NCBI RefSeq assembly: GCF_000266885.1
Contig: NC_018020.1
Coordinates: 3,348,001 to 3,412,000, forward strand
DNA: 64,000 bases
From: Turneriella parva DSM 21527
GTDB lineage: Bacteria > Spirochaetota > Leptospiria > Turneriellales > Turneriellaceae
Reading direction: 5' to 3'
Shown here: piece by piece, positions 35,115 through 43,810 of the stretch
Layout: every line of letters starts with the position of its first letter
Position numbering within the stretch: the stretch's first letter is position 1
Notes under the pieces: generated by a model
Told to the model about the DNA's origin: nothing
Seen by the model: only the letters and a program-made list of their open reading frames with translations
The model's database searches: none
Program-made: the position numbers and the translations under genes

Positions 35115-35137
35115 GCGATGCGTAAGTTACGCATCGC
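35115..35137. repeat. hairpin just before the riboswitch
   Basis: GCGATGCGTAA and TTACGCATCGC are perfect arms around one base, followed by seven A. It may end transcription of the upstream gene on the opposite logic (no T run on the plus strand) or simply separate it from the riboswitch. Confidence 0.45.
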
Positions 35138-35142
35138 AAAAA

Positions 35143-35278
35143 AAGAGGAAGTCCGGTGAAAATCCGGCGCTGACCCGCAACCGTAATGGATAATCTTGTT
35201 TGGGGCCGCAGGCCCCAAACAAGATTATCCTAAGTCGGGAACTCTTGTTGCTGCACCCCGAGGACACGGGTGCAGCAG
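35143..35278 (+). promoter_or_regulatory. cobalamin riboswitch
   Basis: The conserved core is present: GGAAGTCCGGTGAAAATCCGG, then CTGACCCGCAACCGTAA, then TAAGTCGGGAAC. Outer pairing of AAGAG (35143-35147) with CTCTT (35242-35246) closes the aptamer. A 10-bp hairpin with arms TGCTGCACCC and GGGTGCAGCA (35249-35277) follows, with a nine-base loop that could form the kissing contact or act as expression platform. The variable arm between the core halves is a perfect 20-bp hairpin (35188-35230), unusually long and regular. It should switch off the downstream lipoprotein-receptor-lipoprotein genes when B12 is plentiful. Confidence 0.88.
35188..35230. repeat. 20-bp perfect palindrome inside the riboswitch
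   Basis: GGATAATCTTGTTTGGGGCC pairs perfectly with its complement across the loop GCA. It fills the peripheral arm of the aptamer and resembles in form the other perfect palindromes in this window. Confidence 0.85.
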
Positions 35279-35358
35279 CGAAAAGCTTTTGAAAAATCCA
35301 GCATTTCAGAAGCCAGCGGGCTCTATGGGGTTGATAATACAACCAACAGGGGCAGCAA

Positions 35359-36201
35359 ATGCAGAATCGAATCTCTTTTCTAATGGTGGGTAGCGCCCTC
35401 ATCGCATTCACGGTGCACTGCGCGCAGATCGAGAAAGAAGACACCAATAGCGGCAATGGCAACAGCAATTCTGTCGCGACAAGTGCGGCCAAGCCGGGTG
35501 TTTACCTGGCTGACCAGGTCGTCGAAGCACCGGGCAATACCGGCACGGGCTTTGGCAACACGAACCTTGTGATCAACGGCGTACGCGGCAGCGGCCTCAC
35601 AGCCGGCGGACTCGACGTCTATTCGCTCGAGAACACCGGTGCGACAACGCACATCGTGCTCGCCTGGAATGGCAAGAAGGTCAAGAATGTAGCGGGCGCC
35701 GACTTTGCCGTTTATGAGAACGCCTTCAATTCAACCCCGGGGCCCGGTCGGTTCATGGAACCGATGTTTGCAGAGGTCAGCAATGACAATGTGAACTATT
35801 GCGGTTTTGCACCAGACTTCACGAACACACCCGAAACGACTTATTCCAACGACCCCGGGCATTGGCTGCGTTTTGCGGGCAAGGCGCCTGTGGTCTACAA
35901 TGTTACGAATTCTGCCAATAATTTTACGGCTGCAGAACTCTTTACCGACGCGGATGCAGACGGTGAGGGTGATGTCGGTGGTGGAGATCTGTTTGATCTC
36001 GACAATCTCTCAGACAGCAACGCCTTTGCTACAGGCTGCACAACGCCGCTGCGCGATGAGTTACGCAGTAATGGCTTTCGCTATCTGCGATTGGTTTCAG
36101 CCGCAAGAAGGATTAACCCCGACACGGGTGCGGCTTTCGTGACCGATGCAATTTCGTCTGGGCCAGACATCGATGGCGCGGTAGCACGATCCGTTGAATA
36201 G
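35359..36201 (+). CDS. B12-regulated surface lipoprotein, LIC_13355-like
   Basis: A 280-residue lipoprotein with signal MQNRISFLMVGSALIAFTVHC (lipid on Cys near 21), a short Asn/Ser-rich spacer, and a beta-rich domain with AGADFAVYENAF and MEPMFAEVSNDNVNY. That pattern recalls the surface lipoproteins found beside B12 receptors, such as the Leptospira LIC_13355 group (from memory; not searched). It is the first gene after the cobalamin riboswitch, with GGGG seven bases before the ATG. The likely job is to capture or hand over cobalamin or a related corrinoid at the cell surface, inferred from context. Confidence 0.75.
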   Translation: MQNRISFLMVGSALIAFTVHCAQIEKEDTNSGNGNSNSVATSAAKPGVYLADQVVEAPGNTGTGFGNTNLVINGVRGSGLTAGGLDVYSLENTGATTHIVLAWNGKKVKNVAGADFAVYENAFNSTPGPGRFMEPMFAEVSNDNVNYCGFAPDFTNTPETTYSNDPGHWLRFAGKAPVVYNVTNSANNFTAAELFTDADADGEGDVGGGDLFDLDNLSDSNAFATGCTTPLRDELRSNGFRYLRLVSAARRINPDTGAAFVTDAISSGPDIDGAVARSVE

Positions 36202-38191
36202 AAGCGCAACGGCCGGCTGCCTGCTCTTTGCGCTGGTATCCTTGAGCCAGAACGTTCACGGCGATGAAGCAGAAGAATTGCGGGTGCAGGCGAAACTCAA
36301 ACGCATTAAACCGATTCGTCTGATATCCTCATCGGATGCGCGGGCAGCCGGCAGTTACCGGGAGATACCTCTTGCAACCGCCGCTGAAGCGCCGCTGTCA
36401 GAACGGGCTTCCGATGTTTTGCAAAAGCAAACGGGAGTGCAGGTGAACCGTGCCGGGGCGCCCGGTACGCAGAGCGTGCTCGCGATCAGGGGCATGAGCC
36501 CCGATCAGGTTGAATATTTCATTGAAGGTGTGCCGCTGCCGAGGCCACTCGCGACGCCGCCAAATCTCGAGATGCTGCCGCTGCCGCTTTTTTCAGCCGT
36601 CGATATCTATCCGTCATTTGTGCCGTCGCATTTGCCCGGTGCCAATATCGGCGGAGCCCTGAATTTTCGGCTGCTGCGGCCTGAAGGCGAGTCGGCACGC
36701 TATCTGACGCAGGTATCACAGAATTCACTGCTCGGCACCTCTGTTATCGCGGCCCGGCAGACAGGCAGTTCGCTCAACTTTGTTTCGTTCGAACAGAGCC
36801 GCAATCGCTACGAATACGTTTCTAACAATGGTACCCCTGAGAACCGGTCAGACGACCGTGTTTTGCAGCGGCTCAATGAAGATTTTACGCGGGCGGGCTA
36901 TACGGGTTTTGGCACGCTTGCTGCAGGTAAATGGCAAATTGCCGGCCTCGCTGATTTCTACCATAGCGACCGGGGAATCCCCGGCGTGCAGAATTTGCCG
37001 ATAGAATCGGCCCGGCGCAGCGAGCAGCGCATGAGCGGCGCGGTAAAGGCCGCACGACCGCTCAGCGAAACCCTGAACGTGCAGCTCATCGCTACAACCT
37101 CGTTCGACCGCTCTGAACTGACCGACCCAAAGCGCGAACTCATCGCGGCTACCCGTCAACTGTCTGAATCACCGCAATTGCTCGCTGGGGCTTCGCTGGC
37201 ATTTCGCACCAACACAGTCGATGCCGCTGTGCACACCCGGGCCAAGTACCAGTCTATCGCGGTCGATCGTGGCAATATCGCTGCGCGCCATGAAGGGCAG
37301 GGCACAGCAAACGCCGCCTATGATACAAGTCTCTTTCGTGTCGCCGCGCAGACGGGTTTTACGGCAACCCAGGACAACGCCGCGCAGAATGCGTTTTACG
37401 CATCGCGTGAGACCGTTTTTAGCACAACGGGTGTCAGCGCCTCGGGCTTTGTTGCGCTGCGTCCGCTGGCCCTCTTTGACGCCTCGGCTGACCGCAGCGC
37501 GCTCGAAGTTTATGCCCAGGCCACGAGTGCCTTTAGAAGCCCGACGCTTTATGAGCGCTTCGGCGACGGACTGTTCGTTACGGCCTCTGAATTTCTGCGC
37601 AGCGAGCGTGCAATTACGAATGCCGCAGGTGTGCGCGGGGCTCTAAATTGTCCGGCGAGTATCATCTGTTCATGGCGCAGCGAAGCGTGGCTTACCGGTG
37701 CGAAAGACTTTATTCTTTTCACACAGAACTCGTCGCGTACGCTTATCGCGGTCAACGCGTCGAGCGCGCAGATCGCGGGTCTCGAAAACGAAGTGCAGCT
37801 TCACCTGCCTGAGAAATTCTTGCTCTCGCTGCGATACACCTATCTCGATGCGCGTGACTATGGCAGCATACCCTATTATCAGGATAAATACCTGCCGTTC
37901 AGACCGAGGCACCACGCAGTGGCGACGCTCACGCTGCTCTTTGGCCAGCTGCGATCGATTACGTCGGCCGAATTTCGGGGCGCAGTCTTTCGCGATCGCT
38001 ACAACAGTTATGGTTTCTATTTGCCGTCGAAGATACTCGTCGACAGCGGTATCGACTATACGCTGAGCTCAGGTGCGACGCATATTCTGAATTTTACCGT
38101 TAAGAATATCACCGATGATCGCGAAACCGACTTCATCGGCTACCCGCTGCCCGGCAGGTATTATCTTGTAAGATGGACGGCTCAATACTGA
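36194..38191 (+). CDS. TonB-dependent receptor, probable cobalamin transporter (BtuB-like)
   Basis: A 665-residue outer-membrane receptor. After a signal peptide (to about residue 24) there is a plug domain: ASDVLQKQTGVQVNRAGAPG, SVLAIRGMSPDQVEYFIEGVPL, then GANIGGALNFR. A 22-strand-type barrel follows. It probably imports vitamin B12, based on the riboswitch in front of the operon and the receptor family. The start is a TTG at 36194 that overlaps the end of the lipoprotein gene. The final strand ends YLVRWTAQY, with an aromatic last residue as usual. No tonB or ABC transporter gene is in the window. Confidence 0.88.
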   Translation: MNRSATAGCLLFALVSLSQNVHGDEAEELRVQAKLKRIKPIRLISSSDARAAGSYREIPLATAAEAPLSERASDVLQKQTGVQVNRAGAPGTQSVLAIRGMSPDQVEYFIEGVPLPRPLATPPNLEMLPLPLFSAVDIYPSFVPSHLPGANIGGALNFRLLRPEGESARYLTQVSQNSLLGTSVIAARQTGSSLNFVSFEQSRNRYEYVSNNGTPENRSDDRVLQRLNEDFTRAGYTGFGTLAAGKWQIAGLADFYHSDRGIPGVQNLPIESARRSEQRMSGAVKAARPLSETLNVQLIATTSFDRSELTDPKRELIAATRQLSESPQLLAGASLAFRTNTVDAAVHTRAKYQSIAVDRGNIAARHEGQGTANAAYDTSLFRVAAQTGFTATQDNAAQNAFYASRETVFSTTGVSASGFVALRPLALFDASADRSALEVYAQATSAFRSPTLYERFGDGLFVTASEFLRSERAITNAAGVRGALNCPASIICSWRSEAWLTGAKDFILFTQNSSRTLIAVNASSAQIAGLENEVQLHLPEKFLLSLRYTYLDARDYGSIPYYQDKYLPFRPRHHAVATLTLLFGQLRSITSAEFRGAVFRDRYNSYGFYLPSKILVDSGIDYTLSSGATHILNFTVKNITDDRETDFIGYPLPGRYYLVRWTAQY

Positions 38192-39318
38192 TGCAAAGGC
38201 GCAGAATGGTCAATAATTTCGCGTGTGCTGTGCTGATTTTTCTGGGGGCATGCGCTGATTTTGAGCGCCCGCAGAAGCCCGATGCGCCGGCGAGCGGCGT
38301 TGTGCTTGCGGTCGGCTCCGATTTTTCTACGGGCTTTCTGAGCGCGGTCGACCCTGCAGGCTCGAAAGCGTACCGGGATATCGTACCCATTTACCAGGAT
38401 TCAGGCGTGCACTACGATTCTGCTTCTGTGGCGTCATTCGTCTTGCAACGCCTCGGAGCAGATTCAGTCATGCGCGTGGACCATAGTTCAGGGTACATGA
38501 TTCAATATGAGGTTTCACTCGGTTCAAAGCTGAATCCTCAAAGTATTGCATTCTTGCCCGGTGGACTTTTCGCTGTTTCTTACTTTAATGCGAACCACAT
38601 CGACATTCGCAGCCGAAATTCTGGCGCGCTATCAGCACAGATCGGTATTTCGGCTTATGCCGACGGCGACGGGTATGCCGAAGCCGGCGACATGCTCTAC
38701 CACGCGGGATTCTTATACGTAGCGGTACAAAGGCTTGCGCGAAATGCAACCGATGCGCTTTGGCCGCCCGAAGGTACAAGTTACCTATTGAAAATTGACG
38801 TCTCAAACTATGCAGTCGTGGCCACAACGCTCTCGCATACGAATCCGATTTCGCGCCTGCATTACAATGCTGCGCGCAATTCCATCATCTTTGCCGCCGC
38901 GGGCAGATTCGCCGCCAACTACCAGCTCGATGGTGCCTGCCTGGAATTCTCGGTGGCTTCGGGTGCTCTGCTCGCTCCGCTGATATCTGAAGCGCAGGCA
39001 GGTTACGAGATTGCGGATTGTGAATTAACTGCCGGCGGTCAGGGAATTTTCATTGGCTACGATGCAGGGTTAAACAGCATCTTTGGTTCGTTCAACACGA
39101 CCACGCCGGCGGTAACGGGTGTCGCCGCGTTCTTGAATCGCAATAATGGTGGTTACCTTGCGGGCTTTTTGCTGCACTCAAACGGCAATGTCTACCTGGC
39201 AGACCGCAATATTTTTCAGCCGGGCGTTCGTATTTTCGACGGGGTCTCGCTCAATGAGCTCACGACCAAGGCGCTCAGCGTCGGTTTGCCGCCGCTGAGC
39301 CTGGAAGAAGTGCCTTGA
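38191..39318 (+). CDS. propeller-like surface lipoprotein of the B12 operon
   Basis: A lipoprotein of about 375 residues; the start at 38191 overlaps the receptor stop (TGATG) and gives a signal ending FLGAC, lipid near residue 20. The rest has repeated beta units of about 45 residues (NPQSIAFLPGGLFAVSYFNANHIDIR, GDMLYHAGFLYVAVQRL, NSIIFAAAGRF), which suggests a beta-propeller. In Bacteroides, the propeller lipoprotein BtuG sits on BtuB and captures B12. This protein has the same position, so an analogous role is likely, though the sequence relation is not established. Confidence 0.7.
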   Translation: MQRRRMVNNFACAVLIFLGACADFERPQKPDAPASGVVLAVGSDFSTGFLSAVDPAGSKAYRDIVPIYQDSGVHYDSASVASFVLQRLGADSVMRVDHSSGYMIQYEVSLGSKLNPQSIAFLPGGLFAVSYFNANHIDIRSRNSGALSAQIGISAYADGDGYAEAGDMLYHAGFLYVAVQRLARNATDALWPPEGTSYLLKIDVSNYAVVATTLSHTNPISRLHYNAARNSIIFAAAGRFAANYQLDGACLEFSVASGALLAPLISEAQAGYEIADCELTAGGQGIFIGYDAGLNSIFGSFNTTTPAVTGVAAFLNRNNGGYLAGFLLHSNGNVYLADRNIFQPGVRIFDGVSLNELTTKALSVGLPPLSLEEVP

Positions 39319-42223: not shown

Positions 42224-43810
42224 TCAGTTGCGGTGCTGCCGCCAGGTGCCGTGAAAACCATAGGGAACACGGTGCGGCAGCCAGATTTCGCAGAGCGGCT
42301 TTTTATCGGGTTTTGCTACGTCGAAAACCGCAAGGTAAGAACGGTTGTCTTCGGTTGAGTAAATAAGGTTCAGCAGGTAACCTTTGCGCTCGCCCGGTTT
42401 GCCCGTGGGAACAAAAATCGGCTCCCCGCCAAAATGCCCGCGCGGAAAATCATGAATATCTGCTTTGACCTTACCCCGGCTGAGCTCGTAGCTCACCTGA
42501 CCGTCGAAAATACCCGCGGCCGAGCTGTTATTGCCCGACGCGCTGGCCGCAAAACTGTGCTCGTATTTTTCGCCCACGAGGCGGGGATCAATCACGGGAA
42601 ATTCTGCATAGTGCTCGCTGTGTAAAACCTGCGTCTCGGTTTTGCCCGAAGCGAGATCGATGCGAAAGCGCGTCAGGTAACCGTTGTTTGCCTGTTCGAA
42701 AAGCTCGGCGCGTATTTCAGTGTCGCTGCCCATCAGCGGTACCCGCTCGTAACGAATTGCATCCACAACGATCGCCTTGCCGTCTTCGTATGCGTTGGCG
42801 TAGTGGTACACATAACCCACCGGCAGTTCGAACCTGCGCAGCGACGCGGTATCGCCATCTTTGTTCATGACGATGACAGATGCTCCCTTTTCGGGCTGCC
42901 ATTCGGCGATGCGGCCCCTGCGTATCGAGGCAAGCGAAGTGACTGCGGGAAAAACCGGCACAACAGCATAATTGCGCGTAATGGCAAAATCGTGAATCAT
43001 CGCCGCGTAATCGGTTTCGACTGCCGTGCGGCTGACAAGTTTACCATGGGGATTAATCACGTAATATTCGAGTCTGGGCCCGCCCGCGACCCGGTAGCCA
43101 AAAGCATACAGGTATCCCGTCTGCGGGTCAGTCTTCGGGTGCGCCGTGAAGGGTGCCATAAACCCCGCGTCGAATTTCTCAAAACCTTCGCTCGCGAGGG
43201 TTGTGGGCTGCAGGCGAATTGGCGGGCTGCTTTCGACCAGAGCGAAAAGTTCTTCGCGAAACGCGAGTACTGAAGTGTTTGCCTTGGCAATGAGGCGCGT
43301 GTAGGCATCGGCGTTCTTGTCACGGATCAGACCGGAGATCAATGAAATGAGGTTACCGCCGACGAGCTGCAGATTCGCAAGCATATTCGTGCGTTGCCCG
43401 AGAAAGAGATTACGCCCCGCGCGGCGTTCGAGCTCAAGCGTCGGCGTGGCAACATAGCGGTTCAGATACGAGACTTCACCGCGCTGCAGGTGAAAGGCGT
43501 GCAGCATGCCGTCGCCGAGAAACCAATGGTAAAACGGGCCCGGCTCAAACTGCGGGTTGGGGCCATTGCGGTAGAAGCTTCCGTTGAGGTCGCGCGGTAC
43601 CTTGCCCCGAATCTCGAATTGCCGGGTCTTCGCCAGATTAAATTCATGTCGCAAAGGAGCAAAATTACCTTCGAGAAAAAGATTGGCGGGTGCTGTCGGC
43701 ATGCGTTTCGCGTGCGAATTCGCCTTCGGCACGTCGATTGATTTACCGACGAAACGCTGCTCGTTTTCAGCGGCAGAAGCGCCAGAGGTGTCCTTGCCAG
43801 AAACCAACAT
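42224..43810 (-). CDS. carotenoid cleavage oxygenase family protein
   Basis: Non-haem iron enzyme of the carotenoid oxygenase (RPE65-like) family, 528 residues if the ATG at 43810 is used. Typical stretches are GSFYRNGPNPQFEP, FLGDGMLHAFHL, FTAHPKTDPQTG, MIHDFAITRNYAV, YHYANAYEDG and the C-terminal PYGFHGTW; the four iron-binding histidines lie in the last five. It likely splits a carotenoid or related polyene. The start is uncertain: the ATG at 43810 is inside a perfect inverted repeat and lacks a ribosome binding site; an in-frame ATG at 43702 would give a 492-residue protein. ppk1 follows. Confidence 0.88.
   Translation of the reverse strand: MLVSGKDTSGASAAENEQRFVGKSIDVPKANSHAKRMPTAPANLFLEGNFAPLRHEFNLAKTRQFEIRGKVPRDLNGSFYRNGPNPQFEPGPFYHWFLGDGMLHAFHLQRGEVSYLNRYVATPTLELERRAGRNLFLGQRTNMLANLQLVGGNLISLISGLIRDKNADAYTRLIAKANTSVLAFREELFALVESSPPIRLQPTTLASEGFEKFDAGFMAPFTAHPKTDPQTGYLYAFGYRVAGGPRLEYYVINPHGKLVSRTAVETDYAAMIHDFAITRNYAVVPVFPAVTSLASIRRGRIAEWQPEKGASVIVMNKDGDTASLRRFELPVGYVYHYANAYEDGKAIVVDAIRYERVPLMGSDTEIRAELFEQANNGYLTRFRIDLASGKTETQVLHSEHYAEFPVIDPRLVGEKYEHSFAASASGNNSSAAGIFDGQVSYELSRGKVKADIHDFPRGHFGGEPIFVPTGKPGERKGYLLNLIYSTEDNRSYLAVFDVAKPDKKPLCEIWLPHRVPYGFHGTWRQHRN

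Follow-up and report, generated by a model that had tools for sequence, protein, structure and literature searches.

A predicted BtuH-like/BtuB-like/BtuG-like operon behind a cobalamin riboswitch in the spirochaete Turneriella parva

Introduction

Among the closest described systems is BtuB1-BtuG1 of Bacteroides thetaiotaomicron (8blw; PMC10404256), in which a TonB-dependent B12 receptor is joined by a propeller lipoprotein that serves as its lid and by a BtuH domain. A similar set of parts is predicted for the locus described here, from the free-living aerobic spirochaete Turneriella parva (PMC3746428). In B. thetaiotaomicron, however, BtuG1 carries the BtuH domain as a fusion, whereas in T. 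parva its counterpart is a separate lipoprotein, encoded by the first gene of the operon (gene A); the B. thetaiotaomicron loci contain additional genes for B12 transport, unlike the T. parva operon. A second relative is BtuH2 (7biz; PMC8941943), whose C-terminal B12-binding domain matches the predicted fold of the A protein, at 14% identity. BtuG has been reported as exclusive to Bacteroidetes, and its emergence has been linked to gut competition (PMC6143338).

Two further families bear on the comparison. The LIC_13355 lipoproteins of Leptospira (NF033170; PMC11891782), of which A is a full member, were published without a B12 context, and in the Leptospiria loci read their genes often lie beside genes for LIC13354-like and DUF6580 proteins, not beside genes B and C of the present operon. 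The DUF4465 (BtuJ) proteins (PMC13398666) are secreted, B12-binding jellyrolls encoded near TonB receptors and propellers and reported from Spirochaetota as well, but the T. parva genome has no DUF4465 match. No paper linking BtuG or BtuH with LIC_13355 or Turneriella was found in our literature search.

Organization of the locus and its riboswitch

The window analysed was a stretch of 64,000 nt from T. parva DSM 21527, positions 3,348,001-3,412,000 of contig NC_018020.1 (C1), in a genome of 4,409,302 bases on two contigs. The features of the locus, in window coordinates, are as follows.

35132..35283, plus strand: cobalamin (AdoCbl-type) riboswitch aptamer (RF01482, RF00174, and aptamers upstream of orthologous operons in relatives)
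35284..35358, plus strand: leader from the aptamer to gene A, with a predicted hairpin
35359..36201, plus strand: gene A, LIC_13355-family lipoprotein with a predicted BtuH-like domain at about residues 44-280 (NF033170, fold match)
36194..38191, plus strand: gene B, BtuB-like TonB-dependent outer-membrane receptor (PF07715 plug, family profile)
38191..39318, plus strand: gene C, BtuG-like propeller lipoprotein (predicted fold, Foldseek, VIA)

The products are of 280 amino acids for A (lipobox TVHC), 665 for B (likely start TTG at 36194) and 375 for C (lipobox LGAC). Gene A starts 75 nt after the aptamer ends, and the gene ends overlap as an earlier note on this DNA had described, by 8 nt between A and B and by 1 nt between the stop of B and the ATG of C. 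The arrangement is that of genes coupled in translation within one operon. A scan of the locus for promoters and terminators gave nothing above chance level, and gene C was encoded by no plasmid record searched. The scanned flanks carry no link to B12: a zinc-type oxidoreductase gene lies upstream, and Mpo1-like and carotenoid-oxygenase genes lie on the opposite strand. The latter gene (42224-43810, minus strand) places the carotenoid-oxygenase (RPE65) family in a spirochaete.

The aptamer scored 50.1 bits with RF01482, against a gathering score of 50, a margin of 0.1 bit, and E = 1.8e-8 in a 351-base search of the aptamer region alone. At the same site RF00174 scored 36.0 bits against a cut-off of 31.5, so that both models passed the Rfam gathering score for a cobalamin riboswitch. 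In the Turneriella family, 10/10 genomes had a cobalamin aptamer on the strand of A and upstream of it, counting only those with the start of A and its upstream DNA on the contig. Scores in the family ranged from 27.5 to 85 bits, some of them below the gathering score, and in one genome (G156) the aptamer lay about 1.7 kb upstream of A with other genes of the set in between. Synteny in relatives thus backs a call that is marginal on its own score. The reading of the operon as led by a cobalamin riboswitch stands, with its start moved to 35132, 11 nt before the position of 35143 given at first. In the leader, a predicted hairpin pairs the Shine-Dalgarno-like AGGGGC (MFE fold of 35232-35375; z = -3.8, a value driven mostly by the aptamer's own 3' hairpin). 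This pairing suggests a translational mode of control.

The BtuB-like receptor

The B protein has the TonB plug domain PF07715. When the profile of its family was compared with the PDB, the ten best matches were BtuB1, BtuB3, BtuB2 and E. coli BtuB, with E values from 3e-41 to 6e-34 and BtuB1 (8blw_A, E = 3.2e-41) at the top; an unspecified receptor (5e-30) and the colicin I receptor (3e-22) followed. B is therefore a plug-and-barrel protein whose closest relatives are B12 receptors, in line with the earlier proposal of a BtuB-like TonB-dependent receptor. Scores with the NCBIfam BtuB equivalogs were below cut-off (TIGR01779, 52.1 against 599.7 bits; PRK10641, 39.8 against 836 bits). As a single sequence, B gave weak matches to mixed receptors, the highest being the siderophore-receptor model MxcH at 76 bits.

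The BtuG-like propeller

The C protein was modelled by AF2 at pLDDT 90, from an input of 14 relatives of which none was labelled Bacteroidetes. Comparison of the predicted propeller with BtuG had been set beforehand as a check, which the BtuG-like reading passed: all of the Foldseek matches in the PDB at ranks 1-13 were BtuG, as were all entries at ranks 1-11 with VIA (Z = 30.0-32.1; for 8bmz_B, Z = 32.1 over 309 residues, rmsd 2.7). The margin is modest, because other propellers reach Z = 29.3. The protein is thus a predicted propeller lipoprotein, as had been proposed for the third gene, and its nearest solved structures are those of BtuG; it also lies, as a lipoprotein gene overlapping a btuB-like gene, in a locus with an upstream cobalamin riboswitch. 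These results agree with the idea that the B12 uptake operon encodes a BtuG-like cap.

At the sequence level, the three best PDB matches of the C family profile were BtuG, though weak (E = 0.005), and comparison with a profile of Bacteroidales BtuG gave 93.6% probability over 172 columns. C matched no family in Pfam or NCBIfam, and hence is not a member of PF16819; a single-sequence phmmer search with C of the solved structures found no BtuG chain. Since the similarity is seen only at profile level, we term C BtuG-like and not BtuG, its cobalamin binding and capping of BtuB being putative functions. More generally, the suffix is used because B and C fall short of the sequence thresholds for BtuB and BtuG, and the name that suits the locus best is BtuH-like/BtuB-like/BtuG-like operon, the likeness being one of fold, position and regulation.

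An operon of this make-up might import something other than B12, be it a xenosiderophore, heme or a tetrapyrrole that is not a cobalamin, with a propeller that is XusB-like and not BtuG-like. The MxcH match of B would fit such an operon, and XusB, a siderophore-binding propeller lipoprotein, is found among the fold matches of C. XusB nevertheless scores Z = 25.5 against C, compared with 30-32 for BtuG, the family profile of B places B12 receptors first, the best fold match of A is BtuH, and the operon has cobalamin aptamers upstream of it in relatives. Import of another ligand is, in our view, highly improbable.

The BtuH-like lipoprotein

Gene A had been described as encoding a lipoprotein with a Leptospira-like beta domain. 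That label proved right, because A matches the NCBIfam family LIC_13355 (NF033170) at 247.3 bits, with a cut-off of 120. Its AF2 model (pLDDT 89; input of 38 sequences, none labelled Bacteroidetes) shows residues 44-280 as one domain, the remainder being of low confidence. Ranked by Z, its best structural match was BtuH2 (7biz), through the B12-binding domain, with Z = 13.1 over 165 residues; next came the BtuH part of the BtuG1 fusion (8blw_B residues 388-660, Z = 12.9). Later matches had Z = 9.6 and lower and were mostly domains of the discoidin/CBM32 type. The predicted fold is therefore that of the C-terminal, B12-binding domain of BtuH. The view of A as an extra lipoprotein, in addition to a BtuG-like cap, does not hold, as its predicted fold best matches these two BtuH domains. 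DUF4465 (BtuJ, PF14717) was considered as an identity for A and rejected on the whole-genome search mentioned above; DUF4465/BtuJ structures are also absent among the listed structural matches of A, an absence that excludes nothing.

The sequence link between A and BtuH runs through intermediate homologues. A mixed profile of A and wider homologues (A8) found BtuG1 in the PDB (8blw_B 393-497, E = 2.3e-4), whereas BtuH was not found with a profile of A alone (A7), with a profile of Bacteroidetes homologues only, or by single-sequence phmmer against solved structures. The link exists but is thin, as only the mixed profile finds BtuH. The spirochaete and Bacteroidetes families of A, aligned from disjoint sets, matched each other at 99.2% with E = 1.2e-19 (hhalign), and in two Bacteroidales loci (L164 and L168) homologues of A directly precede BtuG-family (PF16819) genes. 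The evidence leaves A as a predicted BtuH-like lipoprotein with putative cobalamin binding.

Common propeller and jellyroll folds could instead have been recruited independently in spirochaetes. Such convergence would accord with low sequence identity (13-17% for A and C with BtuH and BtuG) and with a C-BtuG profile comparison that reaches only the 93.6% over 172 columns given above. It is at odds with the sequence-level link for A, with the homology of B to BtuB1-3, and with the occurrence of the same neighbours in Bacteroidales and in intermediate phyla, and we regard it as unlikely. Of the two options first offered, a parallel or a related solution to that of Bacteroides, the data lean to the related one, with the A homologues that precede PF16819 genes in Bacteroidales pointing the same way.

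It is also conceivable that B and C import B12 and that A is a general surface adhesin, co-transcribed with them by chance. The LIC_13355 protein of L. interrogans, made in recombinant form, binds laminin, plasminogen and endothelial cells and was published as an adhesin, in a paper without mention of B12 (PMC11891782), and several Leptospiria show no linkage of A to B and C. Those assays, however, used protein refolded from inclusion bodies (PMC11891782), and T. parva is free-living. The fold of A best matches two B12-binding domains, A is riboswitch-led in relatives of Turneriella, and its homologues stand beside B and C in Myxococcota, Deltaproteobacteria and WOR-3, and beside BtuG in Bacteroidales. 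A purely adhesive A thus seems quite unlikely. With A taken as BtuH-like, the LIC_13355 'adhesin' family of Leptospira may instead bind B12. If so, the adhesin of pathogenic Leptospira would be a B12-capture protein, and a family present in Leptospira and studied for adhesion would gain a testable function.

A second aptamer and the inner-membrane step

No FecCD (BtuC-type) permease was found in the T. parva genome, while 13/14 control genomes had one; the T. parva genome does encode proteins with B12-binding domains. Since no such permease was found, the inner-membrane step is probably not carried out by BtuCD. A second cobalamin aptamer, on the minus strand at C1:408774-408935 (L189:6775-6936), scored 31.3 bits, just under the cut-off of 31.5. 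It precedes genes for a lipoprotein with a weak match to the LIC13354 exoprotein family and for a DUF6580 membrane protein. This gene pair recurs beside LIC_13355-family genes in Leptospiria. In G156, a genome of the Turneriella family, one cobalamin riboswitch leads a row (L067:2939-8697) of genes for a LIC13354-like protein, a DUF6580 protein, a LIC13354-like/LIC_13355 fusion, B and C. DUF6580 was present in 37/48 genomes of the class, and FecCD above cut-off in 17. The DUF6580 protein is a candidate for the inner-membrane B12 step, and the family would gain a testable function, as a possible cobamide transporter in genomes lacking FecCD; our literature search found no paper naming it. In host-adapted L. 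interrogans, LIC13354 and LIC13355 rise together, by 3.8- and 3.7-fold respectively (PMC3953431).

Proposed mechanism

We consider it very probable that this operon is repressed by cobamides and serves B12 capture and outer-membrane uptake, with A, B and C in the roles proposed here. The features computed are the riboswitch, the arrangement of the operon, the lipoboxes, the predicted folds, the closest relatives of known structure, the conserved gene linkage and the absence of a FecCD match. One solved complex is common to the three proteins, 8blw (BtuB1-BtuG1) being the best Foldseek match of A, the best profile match of B and among the top matches of C. From these we infer a ligand, a sign of regulation and a lid mechanism. 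At low cobalamin levels inside the cell, the riboswitch would let A, B and C be expressed. At the presumed surface location, C would act as a lipid-anchored propeller, binding cobamide and forming a lid on the transporter B, in the manner of BtuG on BtuB. A, also lipid-anchored and with a BtuH-like jellyroll fold, would be a second cobamide-binding lipoprotein that scavenges the ligand and hands it over, and B would then import the cobamide using TonB energy. Passage across the inner membrane could be the task of the DUF6580 membrane protein behind the second cobalamin aptamer.

A broader proposal is that B12 scavenging in Leptospiria is largely distinct from that of E. coli, with LIC_13355 and LIC13354-like proteins and a BtuG-like lid loading a BtuB-type receptor and DUF6580 replacing BtuCD. 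We hold this tentatively, at slightly less than an even chance.

Distribution in other genomes

Homologues of C occurred in 45/247 sampled spirochaete genomes, nearly all of them in the class of T. parva. Of the 25 spirochaete loci read, 19 had B no more than 500 nt from C. Across Leptospiria the gene set is found again behind cobalamin riboswitches, with exceptions in which C or A is located away from B.

Because the alignments of C diverged too strongly to be used in a scan of related loci, the single genome scan was anchored on A. Both B and C were near A in 12 of the 64 non-spirochaete loci found in this way, from Myxococcota, Deltaproteobacteria, WOR-3 and others. The likeness of the three T. 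parva products to BtuH, BtuB and BtuG suggests that the B12 capture strategy of gut Bacteroides is not confined to Bacteroides. If a BtuB/BtuG/BtuH-like set does operate in a free-living spirochaete, in Myxococcota and in Deltaproteobacteria, lipoprotein-assisted capture of B12 would be wider than supposed and not specific to the gut.

Some individual loci deserve mention. Outside Spirochaetota, two BtuG-like propeller genes occur beside or around a homologue of A at L151:6205-8858, L144:11139-13586 and L122:8850-12657. A homologue of A at L143:590-1267 is on a contig labelled as a metagenome-assembled genome of a Thermoplasmatota archaeon, and is either real or a binning error. In one further genome (G137), matches to large-subunit rRNA (L073:773-1379) lie a few kb from the B12 locus.
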